Positions 3 through 8,478 of a stretch of 34,216 nucleotides of DNA are shown here, in pieces. The notes beneath the pieces were generated by a model that did no database searches, was not told the DNA's origin, and was given only the letters and a program-made list of their open reading frames with translations. Position 1 is the stretch's first letter; the number at the start of each line of letters is the position of its first letter. The translations under genes and the position numbers were made by a program. The stretch comes from Frankia sp. R82 (GTDB taxonomy: Bacteria > Actinomycetota > Actinomycetes > Frankiales > Frankiaceae), in the NCBI RefSeq assembly GCF_023716925.1, contig NZ_JAMQQG010000046.1, forward strand, positions 1-34,216, written 5' to 3'.

Positions 3-926
3 GACCCGGCCGACGGGCTCGCGGCCGTGCTGCGATCCGACGCCACCCGGACCACCCTCGCCGCGGCGACGAACACTGGCGGCGGCCTCGCGGACCACCT
101 CGACCCGGTCACGGACTGGCTCGGACGGCTCCTGCTGCTGTACCCCGTGCCGTTCACCCCGCTGGTGCCCGACGAGCGGATGCTGCCACGGGAGTCGCTG
201 CGGTTCTTCCACCTCGACCCCAGCTGGCTGGACGCCCTGGTCTCCGGTGCGCTCAGCATCGGCGCGCAGTCCAGTCGGGACACCGCGCAGGACCAGATCG
301 TCGCCGCCACCATTCGGGCCGCGGCGGCGGCGAAGGCGGCCGGCTACCGCGCGACGCAGCGCGCCACCGCACCACCGGACACCACGTCCGGCGACCCGTC
401 AGGGGGCGATGCTGTCCTCGGACCGGTCAGCGGTCTGCTGCTGCGTTCGGCGCTCGTCTCCGGCTGGCCGAACCTCGCCGTCCGGGCCAGCGACCCGGCG
501 GGTGCACCGCTGCCCCTGCTGCGGATGGACCGTCTCTCCCCCACCGTGCTGCTGTGCCTGTTCGACGGCCTGCCCGCGGTCGTCGAACTCGCCGAGCCCC
601 AGGAGGGCTTCCGGTTCGGCGTGCAGGACCACGGCCTGATCCCGCTGCGCAACCTGCTGGCCCCACCGCACCCGTCCGGGGGCCGCCCGCTCGGCGAACA
701 GTTCGGCCCCGACGTCACCTTCCCCGTCCTGGACCATCTGCGGGCCGGTGCCGGTGCCAGCGGCCGGATCCTCGACCTCGGTTCGCTCGTCCCCGCGCTG
801 ACGACGGCGCTGGGCTCCGCGCACGGCACCGCCGTCGGCCCCCTCGGCCCCGCCGACCTGGCTCTGCAGATGGTCAGGGTCCCCGAGGCCATCCGCTTCA
901 CCGGCCCGAACGGAGACCCAGGTTGA
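3..926 (+). CDS. Uncharacterised protein, 5' end cut by the window; first gene of a three-gene cassette
   Basis: The frame is open from base 3, so the true start lies upstream of the window and at least 307 residues are present. I do not recognise a named domain. A distinctive conserved-looking stretch near the N-terminal third reads PFTPLVPDERMLP followed by SLRFFHLDPSWLDAL and SGALSIG. I have a recollection of similar wording in uncharacterised proteins of diverse bacteria, but no function. There is no signal peptide or membrane segment in the visible part. The TGA stop (924-926) overlaps the TTG start of the next gene (923), so the two are probably translationally coupled and work together. 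The antisense frames over this stretch are Arg/Gly-rich shadows. Confidence 0.8.
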   Translation, partial: DPADGLAAVLRSDATRTTLAAATNTGGGLADHLDPVTDWLGRLLLLYPVPFTPLVPDERMLPRESLRFFHLDPSWLDALVSGALSIGAQSSRDTAQDQIVAATIRAAAAAKAAGYRATQRATAPPDTTSGDPSGGDAVLGPVSGLLLRSALVSGWPNLAVRASDPAGAPLPLLRMDRLSPTVLLCLFDGLPAVVELAEPQEGFRFGVQDHGLIPLRNLLAPPHPSGGRPLGEQFGPDVTFPVLDHLRAGAGASGRILDLGSLVPALTTALGSAHGTAVGPLGPADLALQMVRVPEAIRFTGPNGDPG

Positions 927-3900
927 CCACCCGCCCCGCCCTCGTCGTCCCCGTGGACCTCGACGTCCTCGTGGTCAACCGGGCCCTGCAGGGCCGCGAC
1001 GCCTTCCGGAGCTGGCAGCACACCTACCTGGCGCTGGACGACTACCTGAGCCCGGAACCGGACGGGGGCGACCGCCAGAGCAACGATCCGGTGCACAGCC
1101 ACACCGGCGTCCACCTGCACTGGACCCTGCCCCGGGGGCTGCGCCACGGCGTCCAGGATCCGGTGACAGGTGAGATCCGCTACCCGCTGGTGCCCAACCG
1201 CTGGCTGGTGATCCGCGTCAGCGGTACCGGCACCCGCCTCGCCCGGGCGTGGGTGATCGAAAGCGACTGCCCGTGCAGCCCGCACGCGCAGGACGACGGA
1301 CACGACCTCGTGCGCTCCAGCCCCTACCTGGTCGACGCCGCCACCCTGCGCGCCTGGCAGGCCAGCTCCGACCCCTACCGCAACACCATGGACCCCGACG
1401 TCCGGCAGGTCCAGATCGGGCTCGCCTTCGCCCACACCGACACCCCGTGGACGGAACGCGCCGGCCGGGACCCGCTGTTCGTCACCGCCCTAGCCAGCGG
1501 CGACCCCTACTTCACCACCTACACCCCGCACAACACCAACGTCTTCTCCTTCCTCGACGACCTCGCCGACCTCACGTCCGCCACCACCCTCGGCTACCGG
1601 GTCATCGGCTGGTACTCCGATCCGGACGCCGACGTGCTCGCCACCCGCCCGCCCGCCGTCTCCTACCCGGACCACCTCGCGCACCTGGACTGGCAGGATC
1701 CCCGCCTGACCGGCGAGGCCGAACACGATGCCACGGTCAGCCCGATCGCCCGCAGCCTGTACGCCGGGACGGCCCTGGCCGTCGGCTGGGATCCCGCCGC
1801 GAGCGCGGCGCCCGTCCCGGACCCGCTGGACACGATCGGCGACAACGGTGCGCTCAGCGTCGCCCTGGGCAACACCACCGAGGACGCCTTCACCGCCCTC
1901 GCCGGCCAGGCCCTGCACGCGACCGGCGCCACGCCGTCGGCCGCCGACGTGGCACTGCTGCGGGCGTTCCTGCACGACCTGCTCGCCGTCGCCGAGGAGA
2001 CCGGCGGCGACGAGCGGGTCCGCCGCCACGTCCGCGACGCCTCGTTCGCCGCGTCGGGCGGTGGCCACCGGTGGACGGTCACCCCGCCCCCTGTCGACAC
2101 CGCGTCCACCGACACCACGTCCACCGACACCGCACCCACCGACAGCCCGTCCACCGGCCGCCCGTCCACCGAGGCCGCGGTGCCGCCCGTCTTCGTCCCG
2201 CCGGCCTGGCTGGCCACGCTCAACGACGACCAGCGTCAGCTCGACGCGCACCTCGGCGAGCTGGCGGACCTGCAGTGGCAGCTCAACGCCCTGTGGCTGA
2301 AGAACGGGATCGCCGGGCAGGCGATGTTCCCGCCCGACGACGTCCCCGACCAGGACCAGCTGGTGCGGGAACTCGACGCCGACCGGGCGGGATCACTCGC
2401 CCACACCGTGCGCGTGCGCACCGCCGAGGTGCGGGAGCTGGCCGCGAAGGTCCCCCAGCCCGACCGCACCCAGGCCCACGCCAGCGCCCACGACGCGTTC
2501 CTCGCCGGAATCGGCGCCTTCGCCGCGGCGAAGGGACTCGGCGGGGGCGCCGAACTCAAGGCCGTCCCGCGTGCCCCGTTCGCGCAGAGCAACAACCCCG
2601 TGGTGAGCCTGTCGGGGGTCCTGCCCCCGGCGGACGCCACCGTTGCCGACCAGCCCGTTCCCGTCCGGCCTCTCACCGCCGACGGCGCCGCGCTGATCAG
2701 CGCGGTCACGGTCGCGGGCACGACGATCACCGCGGTACCCGGGCGCGGCCCGGTGCCCGCCATCACGGGTCTCGACGCCTTCCCACCCGAGGTACCCGGC
2801 CTGCTCGCGGAGTACTTCCTGCTCGATCCCGGCAACGCCGCCGCACTGGCCACCACCGGTGGCCTGTCGGCGGAGCAGGTCGGGGCCGTCCTGAGCGCCC
2901 ACCCACCCGCCGCCTACACCGGCACCCTCCCGCAGCTGGGCCTGGAACCCTGGGCCCAGCCCTGGGAGCCGCTGTTCATGGACTGGAAGATCTCCTACCG
3001 GCACATCCCGCACACCGTGGGCGCGCAGCGCTGCTGGACCTTCGACGGCACCGACTACCGCTTCACCCCGCAGGGCGCGGACGTTCCCGTCGATCGGGTC
3101 ACCGTCACGGGTGTCAGCGCGCTCGGCCCGCACCCCCGGTCCCTGTTCGCCGCCCGGCTGACGGAGTACGTCGCCCAGCACGGCACCGGCAACCAGCGCA
3201 ACCAGCTCGACGCCTGGCTCGCCGCGATCGGCGACTGGGGGCTGCTCGCCCAGGAGCTCACCGGCTTCAACGCGCGCCTGGCCGCCCGCGACCTGCGGGC
3301 CTTTCGCCGCCCCACGACCGACGACCCCGACTTTCCCACCGTCGCCGACCTCGCCGGCTATCCGGACGCCGCCACCGCGGACGGCCTGCCCACGCGCTAC
3401 CGCGGCCGGGTCAGCAGTGTCCCGTACCTGCCCGGCAGCGCCAGCGCCCCCTTCCACGAGACCCGCCAGGGGCAGATCTGCATCGAGGAGCTTTTCCTCT
3501 ACGACAAGTTCGGCCGGGTCCTGACCGTCGTCAGCGGCGACACCCAGAGCGGCGGCCTGCACGACTACCGCAACTTCCCGCTCACCGTCGACACCGCCCT
3601 CGTCGCCCGGACCTCGCTGACGCCCACCATCGCCTCCGTCGCCCAGCTACCCCCGCGTCCCCTGCAACCCGCCCGCCTCGACTTCGACCTCCTGGACGCC
3701 CAGACCGGCACGCGCGTCGTCGGCACCGCGGCCGACCCCAGCCCCCTCTGCGGCTGGATCCTGCCCAACCACCTCGACCACAGCCTGCTGCTCTACGACC
3801 CGGCAGGGCTCCTGCTCGGCACCTACCGGCTGCTCGCCGGGGCCGACGGTCGGCGCACCGGCCAGTGGGAACCCCCACCCGGCAGCGCCATCACCACCCT

Positions 3901-4858
3901 GGCCCAGCTCGCCGCCCACGCCCCCGAGATCGCGGCCCTCATCGGCTCGGCGAGACTCGCCACCGAAGCGAACGTCACCGCCTTCCTCGACGTCATCGAC
4001 TCCACCCTGTGGACCACCGACCCGCTCGGTCGGCGCGCCGACCAGAACCTGTCCCTGCTGCTCGGACGTCCGCTGGCCCTCGTCCCCGCGCAGCTGCGGC
4101 TGACCCTCGAGGGACCCCCCATCCGCGACACCGGCTGGTCCGCCACCCTCGACCCGCCACCGCCGGCCTTCACCGGCGACCGGTTCGAGATCCGCCTCGG
4201 TGACGTGGCCGCCCGCGACGACGGCCTGATCGGCTACTACGCCACCGGCCCGGACGGGTCCTACGACTACGACCGTTTCCACAGCGTCACCGCACCCGAC
4301 GAGCAGCAGGACTACACCGTCCAGATCGGGCCGCCCGACCCGGCCGAGGCCGCGGGTACCGAATCCGGGCCGGCCGGAGCTGGGCCGGCCGGAAACTACG
4401 TCCCACTGACGTTCGGCGACCCGGCGCCCACCCGGCTGCTGCTGCTCCTCGATCCGCGTGCCCCCGTCCACGCCACCAGCGGCATCGTGCCCACCGCCAC
4501 CGTCACCGTCGCGCCCCGGCACACCGACGAGGCCCTGCGTCGCCTGCAGGCGCTGTTCCACGTCGGCCCCGTCCTCACCACCGAACACGTTCCGGCCAGC
4601 CCGCCCGGCTCCGGCTCAGCGGCCGGTCCCGACGCCGACCACGGCTCCGAGGTCGATCACGGCTCCGAGGCCGGCACCCTCGCCTTCCCCCGGCCGGCCG
4701 AGAAGAACGGCTCGTGGTCCTGGCTGCGCCCCGCGCCGCGGGAGGCGCCCTGGGTGTCGTACAGGCTGGTCCCGGCACCGCTGGAGGCGCAGTTCCCGGA
4801 CAGCCCCGTTCTGCTCGAAGACGGTCTGCTCCGTTTCCTCGCCGACCCGGAGCAGTAG
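923..4858 (+). CDS. Giant uncharacterised protein (1311 aa), second gene of the cassette
   Basis: The start is TTG at 923, inside the stop codon of the preceding gene (TTGA overlap); the frame is open further upstream but that part is a shadow of gene 1. The N-terminal part contains HSHTGVHLHWTLP and YPLVPNRWLV, well-ordered motifs that suggest a folded domain. Around residues 390-415 there is a Thr/Ser/Pro/Asp-rich linker built from ACC-rich DNA repeats. A probable coiled coil follows (about 433-463, DQRQLDAHLGELADLQWQL). The middle has a Trp-rich patch (PWAQPWEPLFMDWKISYRH), and near the C-terminus come DDGLIGYYATG and WSWLRPAP. No signal peptide, membrane helix, nuclease or ATPase motif is visible. 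Size, tight coupling to gene 1 and the fibre-like gene downstream suggest a structural or surface assembly, but that is inference. Confidence 0.85.
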   Translation: MTTRPALVVPVDLDVLVVNRALQGRDAFRSWQHTYLALDDYLSPEPDGGDRQSNDPVHSHTGVHLHWTLPRGLRHGVQDPVTGEIRYPLVPNRWLVIRVSGTGTRLARAWVIESDCPCSPHAQDDGHDLVRSSPYLVDAATLRAWQASSDPYRNTMDPDVRQVQIGLAFAHTDTPWTERAGRDPLFVTALASGDPYFTTYTPHNTNVFSFLDDLADLTSATTLGYRVIGWYSDPDADVLATRPPAVSYPDHLAHLDWQDPRLTGEAEHDATVSPIARSLYAGTALAVGWDPAASAAPVPDPLDTIGDNGALSVALGNTTEDAFTALAGQALHATGATPSAADVALLRAFLHDLLAVAEETGGDERVRRHVRDASFAASGGGHRWTVTPPPVDTASTDTTSTDTAPTDSPSTGRPSTEAAVPPVFVPPAWLATLNDDQRQLDAHLGELADLQWQLNALWLKNGIAGQAMFPPDDVPDQDQLVRELDADRAGSLAHTVRVRTAEVRELAAKVPQPDRTQAHASAHDAFLAGIGAFAAAKGLGGGAELKAVPRAPFAQSNNPVVSLSGVLPPADATVADQPVPVRPLTADGAALISAVTVAGTTITAVPGRGPVPAITGLDAFPPEVPGLLAEYFLLDPGNAAALATTGGLSAEQVGAVLSAHPPAAYTGTLPQLGLEPWAQPWEPLFMDWKISYRHIPHTVGAQRCWTFDGTDYRFTPQGADVPVDRVTVTGVSALGPHPRSLFAARLTEYVAQHGTGNQRNQLDAWLAAIGDWGLLAQELTGFNARLAARDLRAFRRPTTDDPDFPTVADLAGYPDAATADGLPTRYRGRVSSVPYLPGSASAPFHETRQGQICIEELFLYDKFGRVLTVVSGDTQSGGLHDYRNFPLTVDTALVARTSLTPTIASVAQLPPRPLQPARLDFDLLDAQTGTRVVGTAADPSPLCGWILPNHLDHSLLLYDPAGLLLGTYRLLAGADGRRTGQWEPPPGSAITTLAQLAAHAPEIAALIGSARLATEANVTAFLDVIDSTLWTTDPLGRRADQNLSLLLGRPLALVPAQLRLTLEGPPIRDTGWSATLDPPPPAFTGDRFEIRLGDVAARDDGLIGYYATGPDGSYDYDRFHSVTAPDEQQDYTVQIGPPDPAEAAGTESGPAGAGPAGNYVPLTFGDPAPTRLLLLLDPRAPVHATSGIVPTATVTVAPRHTDEALRRLQALFHVGPVLTTEHVPASPPGSGSAAGPDADHGSEVDHGSEAGTLAFPRPAEKNGSWSWLRPAPREAPWVSYRLVPAPLEAQFPDSPVLLEDGLLRFLADPEQ

Positions 4859-4936: not shown

Positions 4937-6394
4937 GTGCCCGAAAACCCGCTGTTCGACTACAGCCCCGCCACTCATCCCTCGCCACTCGAGGCCGGCG
5001 GCGACCCCGAGAAGGGCACCGAGGCCCGCATCAACATCTCCGTCATCCACGGCAACCAGACCATCTACGCCGACCGGATCGCGGTCTCCGTACCGGTCAA
5101 CACGCAGAGCGGTACCGCCTACTTCACCGAGAATCCGCGCGTCGCGGTGAACGACGGCAACTGGCAGCCGGTGGCACTGGCAGCGGACGCCGACCAGGAA
5201 CTCATCCTGGCCGGCACCGATCACCAGGTGCTCACCTTCCACAACGCCAACCCCAAGAATCCGGTCACCTACCCCCTGACCTTCAGTATCAGCGGCCTGA
5301 TAGCCACCGCCACCGGAGACCCGCTCCTCATCCAGATCGCCGAATCCTCCAGCCTGAAACCACAGGGATTCACCCGCAAGAATCCACGAACCCTGACCCT
5401 GCCCGTCATCGAACCCATCTTCTACCTGCGCAACTTCCTGTCCCGCAGCTCGTACCGGCCGACCATCCCCCAGACGAGGATCGACGCCGGCGATCCCCTG
5501 CAGCTGTCCTGGGAGAGCAACGGCACCTACTTCTGGCTGTACGACGGCAGCGGGAACGAGTCCCCCGTGTACGAGGGCACCGGCACCTCGTGGTCCGTTC
5601 CCTCCGGCACGATCCACAACGACACCACCTTCGTCCTGAAGGCGTCCGCGGCGTCCGACGGCACGCCGGAAGCCGTGGCGGCGGAAGCGGCGGCGACGGC
5701 GAACGGCTTCGCATCGGTCGAGCAGTACGCCAGCCTCACCGTCACCGTCAACAACCCCACCCTGACCGGACTCACCGTCTCCGGCCAGGTCACCGTCTCC
5801 GGCCAGATCACCGCCGAATCCACACTCGACCTGTACGGCTCGCTGTACGCCCGCGACGACGTGACGGTCCGGGGGGAGCTGACGGCCGAGGGCACTGTTT
5901 CCGCCCAGTCCCGGGTCACCGTGGACGGGCTGCTCAACGCCAACGACGACCTGACGGTCGGGTCCAAGCTGACCACCGTGGGCATCAACGGTGCACGGCT
6001 GGGAGAGGACATCGAGGTCGGCGAGAAGATAAGCACCTACGGCCACAACGGGCTGAAGGTGCTGCACGACCTCTCGGTCGACGGTGACGTCTCCGGATCC
6101 GGCAGCGTCGAGTTCGTCGCGAGCGACAAGATCGTGCGAATCCGTGAACTGCGCGGGCCCTACGGCGACGCACTGACCATCAACAGCGTCGTCAGGATCC
6201 TCGAGAACTGTGGCCTGTCCGTCGCCGGCCACGAGGTGATCCGCCACGGCGACTCCGTCGGCCTGTGGAACGACGACAAGAGCGGCTGGCTCTACGCACC
6301 CGTCTACAACTACGACTCCGACCGCAAGTACGCGTTCATCTGGAACCCGGGCGACCGCGTCGGCGGCTCCAGCTGGTGGGTCTCCCGCGACTAG
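4937..6394 (+). CDS. Protein with fibre-like repetitive C-terminal half (485 aa), third gene of the cassette
   Basis: The GTG start at 4937 has an AGGAG ribosome-binding site at 4923-4927 and sits 78 bases after the giant gene, so the three genes are likely one operon. Residues 1-170 form a beta-rich globular region (ISVIHGNQTIYADRIAVSVPVN). A second part of roughly 175-280 (LQLSWESNGTYFWLYDG) looks like an Ig or fibronectin-type fold. Residues about 280-385 are short repeats of the kind LTVSGQVTVSGQI, DVTVRGELTAEGTVS, RVTVDGLLNANDDLTV, which resemble the stacked beta-strands of trimeric phage tail fibres or beta-solenoids. The C-terminal 80 residues (SGWLYAPVYNYDSDRKYAFIW) form an aromatic-rich domain that could be a binding tip. 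No secretion signal is seen. A fibre or receptor-binding role is inferred from architecture only. Confidence 0.85.
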   Translation: MPENPLFDYSPATHPSPLEAGGDPEKGTEARINISVIHGNQTIYADRIAVSVPVNTQSGTAYFTENPRVAVNDGNWQPVALAADADQELILAGTDHQVLTFHNANPKNPVTYPLTFSISGLIATATGDPLLIQIAESSSLKPQGFTRKNPRTLTLPVIEPIFYLRNFLSRSSYRPTIPQTRIDAGDPLQLSWESNGTYFWLYDGSGNESPVYEGTGTSWSVPSGTIHNDTTFVLKASAASDGTPEAVAAEAAATANGFASVEQYASLTVTVNNPTLTGLTVSGQVTVSGQITAESTLDLYGSLYARDDVTVRGELTAEGTVSAQSRVTVDGLLNANDDLTVGSKLTTVGINGARLGEDIEVGEKISTYGHNGLKVLHDLSVDGDVSGSGSVEFVASDKIVRIRELRGPYGDALTINSVVRILENCGLSVAGHEVIRHGDSVGLWNDDKSGWLYAPVYNYDSDRKYAFIWNPGDRVGGSSWWVSRD

Positions 6395-6398
6395 GAGC

Positions 6399-6645
6399 TC
6401 AATTCACGCCGCAGAACCGGTGCGGCGCCGAGCCGCTCGCCTTGAGATCCAGGGTGCCCTGCGCCGTGCCCGGATTCCGCCGCCACCCTGGCGCTGCCCG
6501 TTGGGTCAGTGGTGCTCGACCTCGACGCGTCGGAGAACGTCGTCGATGGCGTTGTCCAGCGTCGCGCCGCTGTCCTTTAAATCGGTGGCGGGCCGCCCGA
6601 ACCCTCTGCTAGCGTCGGTCGCGTCCGAAGCGAAGACCGCGGGTT
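6399..6645 (-). pseudogene. Short coding debris on the minus strand between the cassette and the Y RNA
   Basis: Two stretches on the minus strand translate into protein-like sequence but lack starts. One ends at 6399 and reads NPGTAQGTLDLKASG then APHRFCGVN before a stop. The other ends at 6506 and reads FGRPATDLKDSGATLDNAIDD then VLRRVEVEHH before a stop; it is preceded by an in-frame TAA near 6645. They look like C-terminal ends of lost genes. The parent families are not recognisable, and chance in GC-rich DNA cannot be excluded. Confidence 0.3.
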
Positions 6646-6699
6646 ACTTCCTCCTGCAAAGAGAAACCTGCGGCCGTCCGGGTACTCGGATACGAAAAC

Positions 6700-6850
6700 C
6701 TGACAGCGGCGCCGAAGCGCAGAGGCGGCATACTTCACTGGAATCAGCGGTCGCGGGTTCGACTCCCGCCCAGGCGGTGCGAGCCGCCTGGTAGCTCAGT
6801 CCGGCAGAGCACTGATATAAGAGCTTCCTCGATCTGGTACTCGGCGTCAC
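6700..6850 (+). ncRNA. yrlA: YrlA-type bacterial Y RNA with a circularly permuted tRNA-like domain
   Basis: The core (6743-6816) folds as a tRNA read in permuted order. ATCAG (6743-6747) pairs with CTGAT (6812-6816) as the anticodon-stem equivalent. The T-stem is GCGGG/CCCGC (6753-6757, 6765-6769) around the loop TTCGACT. An eight-pair acceptor hairpin joins CCAGGCGG (6770-6777) to CCGCCTGG (6784-6791) through a six-base loop. Then come TA, the D-stem GCTC/GAGC (6794-6797, 6807-6810) and the D-loop AGTCCGGCA. Outside it, GGCGCCGA (6708-6715) pairs with TCGGCGTC (6841-6848), one G-T pair included, which fits the terminal Y stem that Ro binds. Known biology: YrlA RNAs carry this permuted tRNA mimic and are encoded beside rsr, as is the case here (36 bases before the rsr start). 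The RNA ends are estimates; promoter and terminator were not identified. Confidence 0.85.
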
Positions 6851-6885
6851 TCAGGTTCGTGTCCCCGGTCAACCGGGAGGATGGG

Positions 6886-8478
6886 ATGGGCAAGCTCGCC
6901 AGGGCCGCCGCAACACAGGCCGAACAGGGCCCGATCCGCACCGCCACGGCCACACTGACCGCCGAAGGCGGCGCCGGCTGGTCCCGTGACGTCAGAAGCG
7001 AGCTTTTTCTCTTGGCGGTCACCACCATGGTGGGCGAGAACGCCTTCTACGAGCAGGCCGACGACCGCGACAACCGGTTCGTCGCCCTCATCCACGCCGC
7101 CGTCCACGAAGACGCCGCCTGGGTCGCCCGGTTCATCCCGTGGCTTCGCAGCGGCGCGAACATGCGCACCGCGTCGATCATCGCTGCCGCCGAGTACGCC
7201 CGGGCCGTCCGGACGCTTCCCGAAGGCCGGCGGGCCGGCGTACCGGGCGTCCGCGGTGTCATCGGCGGCGCGTTGCAGCGTCCGGACGAACCGGGTGAGT
7301 TCTGCGCCTACTGGACCGGACCCAGGTCGAACTCGACCCTGCCCGGTGGTGTGCAGCGCGGGGTCGCCGACGCGGTGACCCGCCTGTTCACCGAGAAGGC
7401 CGCGTTGAAGTACGACGGGCTGTCGCAGCGTTGGCGGCTCGCGGATGTCATCGAGCTGGTGCATCCGAAGCCGTCCGCCCCCTGGCAGGCAGATCTTTTC
7501 CGGTACCTTCTCGACCGGCGCCACCACGGCGACGGCGCACCGTCGCCGCTGCTCCCGGTGCTGCGCGCCCGCGCCCGGCTGGACGCCATCCCCACGGCGC
7601 AGCGGGCCGCCGAGCTGCACTCGTGGGGCGCCGCCGCGCCCGGTTTCCTCGCCGAGGCCGGGATGACGTGGGAGGCGCTGTCGGGCTGGCTTGACGGCCC
7701 GATGGACACCGCCGCCTGGACGGCGATGATTCCGTCGATGGGGCTGCTGGCGCTGACACGCAACCTGCGCAACATCGACGAGGCCGGCGTGCCGGACGCC
7801 GTCGCGCTGCAGGCGGCGGCGCGGTTCACTGATGCGGAGCAGGTGCGTCGCTCCCGGATGTTCCCGCTGCGTTTCCTGTCCGCGTTCCGGGCGGCGCCGT
7901 CGTTGCGCTGGGCCTGGCCGTTGGAACAGGCGGTGCAGCACAGCCTGGCCAACGTGCCGTCGCTGCCGGGCCGAACCCTGGTGCTCGTCGACCAGTCCGG
8001 GTCGATGTACGCCCCGCTGTCGCGGCGGGGAACCGTCACCCGGGCCGAGGCCGCCGCCCTGTTCGGCTTCGCGATCGGCCTTGCGGCCGAGAATGCCGAT
8101 GTCCACGTCTACGGCTCGACCGGTGGTTGGGGGGAGCAGTCCGCGCACCACCGGCGGATCGACCTTCCCCGCGGCGCATCCGTGCTGCCGTTGGTCGCCG
8201 AGCACGGTCGGGCGAACCTGGGTGGCACCCTGACCTGGACCACGTTCGAGGAGACCTACGCAGGCCATGACCGGGTAGTGATCGTGACCGACGAGCAGTC
8301 GCAGGACTCCCCCACCAGGCTGCCGCAGGTACCGGTCGTCACCTTCAACCTGGCCGGCTATCCGGCTGCCCACATGCCGTCGGCGGCGAACCGGGTGACG
8401 GTCGGCGGACTGTCGGACGCGGGATTTCAGCTGTTGGCCCAGCTCGACGCCCGCTCCCGCGGCGACTGGCCGTTCTGA
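6886..8478 (+). CDS. rsr: Rsr, TROVE-domain Ro60 orthologue (530 aa)
   Basis: This encodes a bacterial Ro60 protein, a ring-shaped RNA-binding protein that holds Y RNA on its outer surface and misfolded or single-stranded RNA in its cavity; in other bacteria it works in RNA quality control and decay with exonucleases such as PNPase. The N-terminal two-thirds is the alpha-helical TROVE region (NRFVALIHAAVHEDAAWVAR, then GANMRTASIIAAAEYARA). The C-terminal third is a von Willebrand A-like fold with a MIDAS motif, DQSGS at residues 369-373, and a later VTDEQS. ATG at 6886 is chosen because GGGAGG (6875-6880) sits five bases upstream; an in-frame GTG at 6859 has no such site. The Y RNA gene lies just upstream on the same strand and may share its transcript. 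Confidence 0.93.
   Translation: MGKLARAAATQAEQGPIRTATATLTAEGGAGWSRDVRSELFLLAVTTMVGENAFYEQADDRDNRFVALIHAAVHEDAAWVARFIPWLRSGANMRTASIIAAAEYARAVRTLPEGRRAGVPGVRGVIGGALQRPDEPGEFCAYWTGPRSNSTLPGGVQRGVADAVTRLFTEKAALKYDGLSQRWRLADVIELVHPKPSAPWQADLFRYLLDRRHHGDGAPSPLLPVLRARARLDAIPTAQRAAELHSWGAAAPGFLAEAGMTWEALSGWLDGPMDTAAWTAMIPSMGLLALTRNLRNIDEAGVPDAVALQAAARFTDAEQVRRSRMFPLRFLSAFRAAPSLRWAWPLEQAVQHSLANVPSLPGRTLVLVDQSGSMYAPLSRRGTVTRAEAAALFGFAIGLAAENADVHVYGSTGGWGEQSAHHRRIDLPRGASVLPLVAEHGRANLGGTLTWTTFEETYAGHDRVVIVTDEQSQDSPTRLPQVPVVTFNLAGYPAAHMPSAANRVTVGGLSDAGFQLLAQLDARSRGDWPF

Follow-up and report, generated by a model that had tools for sequence, protein, structure and literature searches.

The stretch of DNA analysed here (the window; 34,216 nucleotides of Frankia sp. 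R82, on contig C22 of a 6.9-Mb genome) contains a Ro60 ribonucleoprotein locus at positions 6586–8478 of the forward strand. Quite probably, one promoter serves two tandem Y RNAs and perhaps also rsr, the gene of the Ro60-related protein. In order of position, the locus comprises a promoter-like motif (6586–6615), a minimal Y RNA that consists of a stem and has no tRNA-like module (6620–6694), a YrlA-type Y RNA with a circularly permuted tRNA-like module (6707–6849) and rsr (6886–8478), all on the + strand. The first-pass annotation had described a complete system starting at 6700. The YrlA-type RNA and rsr are indeed present, but the stem-only Y RNA and the promoter-like motif had been overlooked and the array begins at about 6620. 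The locus is thus a new case of an already known kind, whose earlier reading was right but incomplete. Two long ORFs lie before the array (554–4858 and 4937–6394) and have no Pfam match, and no RNA-repair (rtc) gene is found among the six neighboring ORFs that were scanned.

The YrlA-type RNA, assigned by a match to the core of the Rfam family RF02553 (YrlA) and by covariation, is closed by an outer stem of 7 bp including one G-U pair (6708–6714/6842–6848). Further inward follow a Ro-side helix with 7 of 8 possible pairs (6722–6729/6823–6830) and, just past this helix on the 5′ strand, the motif UACUUC (6731–6736), which is conserved in all three Y RNA alignments with A or C in second place. 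The tRNA-like module (6743–6816), delimited from the sequence and alignment A2, is framed by a 5-bp equivalent of the anticodon stem (6743–6747/6812–6816) and holds a variable region of 5 nt (6748–6752), a T arm (6753–6769) with a stem of 5 bp (6753–6757/6765–6769), an acceptor hairpin (6770–6791) with 8 bp (6770–6777/6784–6791) and a D arm (6794–6810) with a stem of 4 bp (6794–6797/6807–6810). All helices drawn earlier between 6700 and 6850 are found in the sequence, and the length once put at about 150 nt is about 143 nt according to the alignment. The description of the RNA as a tRNA mimic rather than a tRNA holds as well: in the 6707–6849 RNA, a stem leading into the Ro-side helix replaces the anticodon arm, and ARAGORN finds no tRNA gene in the window. 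Compared with the tRNAs of the genome, the D arm scores 36 for Met and 32 for Thr, so that no distinctive tRNA type emerges.

RF02553 matches 6745–6815 with 43.5 bits (E = 1.8e-8 in a search of 481 nt). In a search of the entire genome (6.9 Mb), the YrlA-type RNA is the best match (E = 6.2e-8), followed by a runner-up with 20.8 bits (E = 0.22). The match covers model positions 23–86 of 114, which indicates that the outer stem and the Ro-side helix diverge from the family. Because the score stays under the gathering threshold of 69, Rfam run at gathering scores reports no RNA in the window; the Rfam check proposed in the first-pass annotation hence succeeded for the core and fell short of the family threshold. 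MFE folding of 6690–6870 and of each RNA speaks neither for nor against the drawn structure (z = −1.39 for the YrlA-type RNA, with the D and anticodon helices not recovered; an unremarkable z = −0.79 for the short Y RNA). Models of tmRNA and tRNA-like RNAs in Rfam show a weak overlap with the T arm, as might be expected if the sequence were a degenerate tRNA gene or resembled a tRNA by chance. Such an origin has next to no probability in view of the permuted order of the arms, the conserved stem that is foreign to tRNAs, a covariation score reached in 0 of 500 shuffles and the strong concentration of such elements upstream of rsr, both described below.

Alignment A2 contains 38 of 55 type-B candidates, with the window as the first row and the structure taken from a Streptomyces row. 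The L003 row was re-bounded by hand, and 17 candidates whose tRNA module is of a different type, contains long inserts or is poorly delimited were excluded manually, which favors the structure. In A2, 97.6% of the cells are paired and 19 of 36 pairs are changed on both sides, as opposed to 1 to 6 pairs in slid controls, in counts where a single inherited change recurs in many of the mostly Streptomyces rows. The covariation score is 0.301 compared with 0.111 in shuffles, none of the 500 shuffles being as high. Changes on both sides affect all five pairs of the anticodon-stem equivalent, 5 of 7 acceptor pairs and 4 of 7 pairs of the outer stem, and the outer helix is paired in 98.9% of its cells. 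The D stem and four of the five T-stem pairs never vary, and covariation therefore says nothing about them. In the orthologous loci of A2, pairing is thus kept by compensatory changes, and the loss of pairing that the first-pass annotation had named as a refutation did not occur. Apart from the gathering score, the RNA shows the hallmarks of YrlA, namely a permuted T arm, acceptor hairpin and D arm with covariation as well as a terminal stem that closes the 5′ and 3′ ends beside a Ro60 gene.

The Ro-side signature of the YrlA-type RNA (CCGAAGCG...UACUUC...GGUACUCGG) recurs at 6620–6694, where it forms the stem-only Y RNA. Its outer stem (6620–6627/6687–6694) has 7 of 8 pairs, its inner helix (6637–6645/6665–6673) has 9 bp, and UACUUC occupies 6645–6650. 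Y RNAs without a tRNA domain exist, and short Y RNAs of this kind are present in 31 of 73 rsr loci, mostly ahead of or between YrlA copies. Alignment A4, which consists of 31 rows and includes all candidates of its list, has 84.8% paired cells and changes on both sides in 10 of 17 pairs (2 to 6 in slid controls). Its covariation score is as high in 0 of 500 shuffles; the measure of further pair types is less clear (7 of 500).

Model R2, which was built from A4, matches exactly the six genomes with rsr among the 35 of the family and none of the 29 others (Fisher p = 6e-7), and among 196 genomes of the class it matches 19 of the 26 that have rsr but none of the 170 that do not (p = 6e-21); since the training rows of R2 stem in part from the same or related genomes, the empty half of these tables is the informative half. 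The window sequence was in the training sets of R2 and of the YrlA model R1, and its own matches are given by construction. The R2 matches in G029 and G030 are contained in no training row. In all 19 positive genomes of the class, the match lies upstream of and near rsr by its coordinates, and the remaining 7 of the 26 have no R2 match. Some R2 matches are 90–125 nt long and hence not strictly of the short type.

More than 250 species of bacteria and phages have likely Y RNAs near Ro60. Five of the other 34 family genomes encode homologs of Rsr, as do 67 loci in named genomes, mostly of Streptomyces; the set of relatives comprises 72 loci (73 with the window). The combination of a T arm and UACUUC, with one mismatch allowed, occurs 94 times in 71 kb upstream of rsr compared with once in 1.2 Mb elsewhere (72 loci, both strands). 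It is found in 64 of 73 loci, and Y elements of any type are found in 67 by the T-arm and short-stem rules. Among the loci without a Y element by these rules (L043, L058, L060, L062, L066, and L071), L043 is matched by other patterns, L062 has a short Y RNA by eye and L058 includes only 408 nt upstream. The 123 candidates of the element finder come from 66 of 73 loci and include at least two spurious ones (L039 3232 and L049 3582); L004 fell outside its search range and was missed. Up to seven Y RNAs precede rsr in relatives. In a Streptosporangiaceae MAG (L057, 3057–3900), seven Y-like elements, stem-only and tRNA-like ones mixed, are arranged in tandem; each has CCGACGCC, UACUUC and a CGCGG end, and one has a D arm of the Pro/Ala type. 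Y RNA arrays are carried by phages, too, and some jumbo phages encode TROVE proteins with a tRNA-like partner (PMC7824862).

The promoter-like motif of the window consists of TGGC (6586–6589), a spacer of 20 nt and a −10-like TAGCGT (6610–6615), and ends 4 nt ahead of the first Y RNA. Its position is conserved among loci: TANNNT stands just upstream of 46 of 65 first Y elements but only 1 of 57 later ones, and the full TGGC-N18-21-TANNNT precedes, at a distance of up to 60 nt, 22 of 65 first elements, the window included, and 0 of 57 later ones. As the motif precedes first elements and hardly ever later ones, the array, perhaps together with rsr, probably forms a single transcription unit that would start at the short Y RNA.

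A single promoter-like motif in front of co-directional elements, the last of which ends 36 nt ahead of the rsr start, would likewise suit a cis-acting leader that controls the translation or transcription of rsr instead of releasing a free small RNA. We regard a leader as very improbable, because the array is made of several complete and separable tandem elements and its tRNA modules are conserved in detail. Moreover, the array in G030 (L004) ends 891 nt from rsr, compared with about 44 nt in L003 and L006, so that something lies between array and gene, and Y-like elements also occur far from rsr in four genomes. These distant elements of rsr-bearing genomes (L126–L129) are about 100 nt long. 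The one in L127 is located downstream of metK, three of the flanks have the same next-gene start, which we take to be that of priA, and in L128 a further tRNA-like element can be seen by eye behind the Y-like one.

In the family, R1 has strong matches in five of the six rsr genomes (E below 1e-13); the sixth, G020, has no YrlA but two Y RNAs that lack both T and D arms. Four of the 29 family genomes that lack rsr have weak matches (34–41 bits, E = 9.6e-5 to 0.003), which in three of these four correspond to another permuted RNA. At seven places, the weak R1 matches are this other RNA beside DUF7873 genes; further weak matches lie in G014 and G032:C88. The explanation of weak matches outside rsr loci as tRNA clusters was discarded, as ARAGORN finds no tRNA in the stretch that was checked (L130). 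The second kind of permuted tRNA-like RNA has neither UACUUC nor the Ro stem (L133 in G030, L134 in G028, L135 in G033, and L137–L143) and comes as a tandem pair with T arm, acceptor hairpin and D arm inside an outer stem. Of the 35 family genomes, seven have a DUF7873 (PF25283) gene, and in all seven the pair is found downstream of it, on the same strand; three of the seven lack rsr (G028, G033, and G034). DUF7873 and its permuted RNA are possibly a new RNA-protein pair.

Searches for rsr, R1 and R2 gave no match in any of 12 genomes of the same genus (G001–G012). Hence, the distribution of the locus is patchy and it may have been acquired. The yrlA genes of some mycobacteria are considered horizontally acquired (PMC9569102).

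The product of rsr is a protein of 530 amino acids with a TROVE ring and a vWA domain, identified by Pfam, an AlphaFold model and its MIDAS. Translation likely starts at the ATG at 6886, which follows GGGAGG (6875–6880). The Pfam TROVE model matches above its cut-off (39.7 bits) over 59 residues only, and neither NCBIfam nor PADLOC has a match to Rsr. The AlphaFold model, based on 19 sequences, reaches a mean pLDDT of 82.8, and all 13 Foldseek matches in the PDB with E up to 0.001 are Ro60/TROVE structures. According to VIA-align, the closest is 9KOP (Z = 25.7), ahead of other Ro60 entries with Z of 20.4–21.5 and of the phage and Deinococcus radiodurans proteins discussed at the end. The MIDAS residues D369-x-S-x-S373 (with S371), T448 and D469 are the same in all 29 aligned rows, phage and plasmid homologs included; L066 was left out of this alignment owing to a stop within its stretch. 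Fold and MIDAS are thus those of a bacterial Ro60, and two further claims of the first-pass annotation, that a YrlA-type RNA adjoins a TROVE/vWA gene and that the MIDAS of its product is intact, are borne out by the RF02553 core match and covariation, by the predicted fold and by the invariant residues, respectively. The PNPase expected for RYPER, the machine made of Rsr, a Y RNA and PNPase, is encoded elsewhere in the genome (PF03726 match).

That a bacterial Y RNA can take the shape of a permuted tRNA is already known from the structure 6CU1 (PMC11472068). Both Y RNAs of the window close with a common type of stem, composed of an outer helix, a conserved internal loop, an inner helix and UACUUC, which is the expected grip site of Rsr. 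The YrlA-type RNA is presumably transcribed and bound by Rsr. The short Y RNA, being a stem alone, might do no more than cap Rsr or compete for it, without bringing a partner. The permuted tRNA body of the YrlA-type RNA, in turn, may be recognized by tRNA-acting proteins or PNPase, one of which would then be tethered to Rsr. The tRNA-modifying enzymes DusA and TruB have been described as accepting YrlA as a substrate (PMC8394870). In D. radiodurans, a Y RNA is reported to tether Rsr to PNPase and thereby to direct PNPase to structured RNA (PMC8394870, PMC7790460), and by homology the YrlA-type RNA of the window should tether in the same manner.

In the relatives, the Ro-side stem can carry a further module. 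One Y RNA in 37 of 73 loci, though none in the window, has an anticodon arm, built as a stem, a 7-nt loop and a 5-nt variable region that leads into the T arm. All five stem pairs are present in 36 of these 37, and four in L057. As the anticodon arm is kept, these RNAs can be interpreted as entire tRNAs with the permutation point between positions 26 and 27, that is, cut between the D arm and the anticodon arm. In alignment A3 (31 rows, all its candidates, 30 of them distinct), the anticodon arm is paired in 100% of cells; three of its pairs are constant and two show changes on both sides, including a switch from C-G to G-C in 9 rows. A literature search covering titles and abstract openings, to which the central Y RNA papers did not belong, returned no description of anticodon-bearing Y RNAs or of such arrays, and they may be an undescribed variant.

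These RNAs give rise to another reading, in which tRNA-like Y RNAs are decoys or baits for tRNA-cutting or tRNA-modifying enzymes and Rsr holds or passes on the product. The enzymes could be anticodon nucleases from rivals or phages, with the growth of arrays and the changing loops as traces of an arms race. For the window, we consider this reading rather unlikely. It draws on the presence of the anticodon arm in about half of the loci and of such arrays in phages, and on the pattern within the loop: all 30 distinct rows of A3 have C32, U33 and A38, and 29 have U36, while positions 34 and 35 vary. On a quick tree with 35 Rsr proteins, which lacks L057 and L073, 17 changes of the triplet are counted. 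A second quick tree, of 30 rows and without L067, shows 13 changes at position 35, more than at any other of the 143 columns (the next has 9, and position 34 has 7). However, several other unpaired columns change 7 to 9 times, and positions 34 and 35 may merely be unconstrained. At position 37, 23 of the 30 rows have A and 7 have C, and a C there is unlike real tRNAs. Furthermore, the RNA of the window has no anticodon loop at all and PADLOC has no match to Rsr, both of which speak against the decoy reading. Published views point both ways: Hughes et al. suggest that YrlA could competitively inhibit an anticodon nuclease, and according to the same source fragments of Salmonella YrlA went undetected when a RecA-dependent nuclease cut tRNAs (PMC7790460). 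The decoy or sensor reading fits the anticodon-bearing relatives better than the window, for which we retain the Ro60 locus with a tethering YrlA-type RNA and a stem-only companion.

Whether the modules copy particular tRNAs can be judged from the D arms, which were scored against 41 tRNAs of this genome, a comparison that is clear only for distinctive types. A Glu-type D arm (score 32–36, next Ser with 24–28) characterizes the second YrlA of L003, L004, L006 and L007, which, if a variable region of 4 nt is assumed, also has an anticodon arm with the triplets GCG, GCG, GUC and CGG, respectively. Leu-type D arms occur in L012, L045 and L072 (score 32; next 28, 20, and 18), and initiator-like ones in L041 (28) and L044 (32), where Pro comes next with 20 and 28, and weakly in L037. 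For most other D arms, several tRNA types score alike. A copying of real tRNAs by the triplets was considered as well: 28 of 37 arms share their 7-nt loop with tRNAs of this genome, which does not count as evidence because C-U-N-N-U-A-A is nearly fixed and many combinations would match.

Across actinobacterial and phage arrays, one Ro-side stem would then combine with three interchangeable payloads. It would carry nothing, a tRNA opened in the anticodon (YrlA, the type of the window), or a complete tRNA opened between the D and anticodon arms, with a fast-changing triplet and D arms that can copy Glu, Leu and initiator-like tRNAs. That these arrays are sets of Ro-held decoys or sensors for tRNA-cutting enzymes is a tentative idea that we hold to be doubtful. 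The third module makes a link between Y RNAs and tRNA-cutting enzymes testable anticodon by anticodon, and the window, with two Y RNAs at one locus whose main difference is a single module, is a natural experiment on the tRNA-like part. The arrays also call for caution in annotation. ARAGORN reports 25 tRNAs upstream of rsr, within 700 nt of the gene except in L004, and 24 of them sit on Y RNAs. Phage records contain tRNA annotations on Y RNAs upstream of Ro-like genes as well: the tRNA-Arg(tct) of Gordonia phage VanLee (L122, 2102–2173) is by eye an anticodon-bearing Y RNA, and the tRNA-Pro(tgg) of Streptomyces phage Frankenweenie (L123, 2152–2242) sits on a Y RNA.

Among known systems, the YrlA-type RNA resembles YrlA (RF02553; Salmonella YrlA, PDB 6CU1) in the order of T arm, closed acceptor hairpin and D arm, in an anticodon stem that runs into the Ro-side stem and in the adjoining rsr gene; unlike RF02553 members, it scores under the gathering threshold and is accompanied in tandem by a stem-only Y RNA. 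The locus has in common with the RNA repair operon rsr-yrlBA-rtcBA of Salmonella an rsr gene with two Y RNAs. Here, in contrast, the Y RNAs precede rsr, no rtc gene is adjacent and the single RtcB match of the genome is on another contig (C347). The predicted fold of Rsr matches D. radiodurans Rsr (2NVO) over 442 residues (Z = 21.6) at 20% identity and Ro60 of the Thermus phage phiLo (9L5Y) over 425 residues (Z = 23.3) at 24% identity. Many arrays of Streptomyces, a Rhodococcus plasmid and actinophages include an anticodon-bearing Y RNA, which the window does not, whereas the stem signature is common to all of them and the window, as is the promoter position in the bacterial loci.
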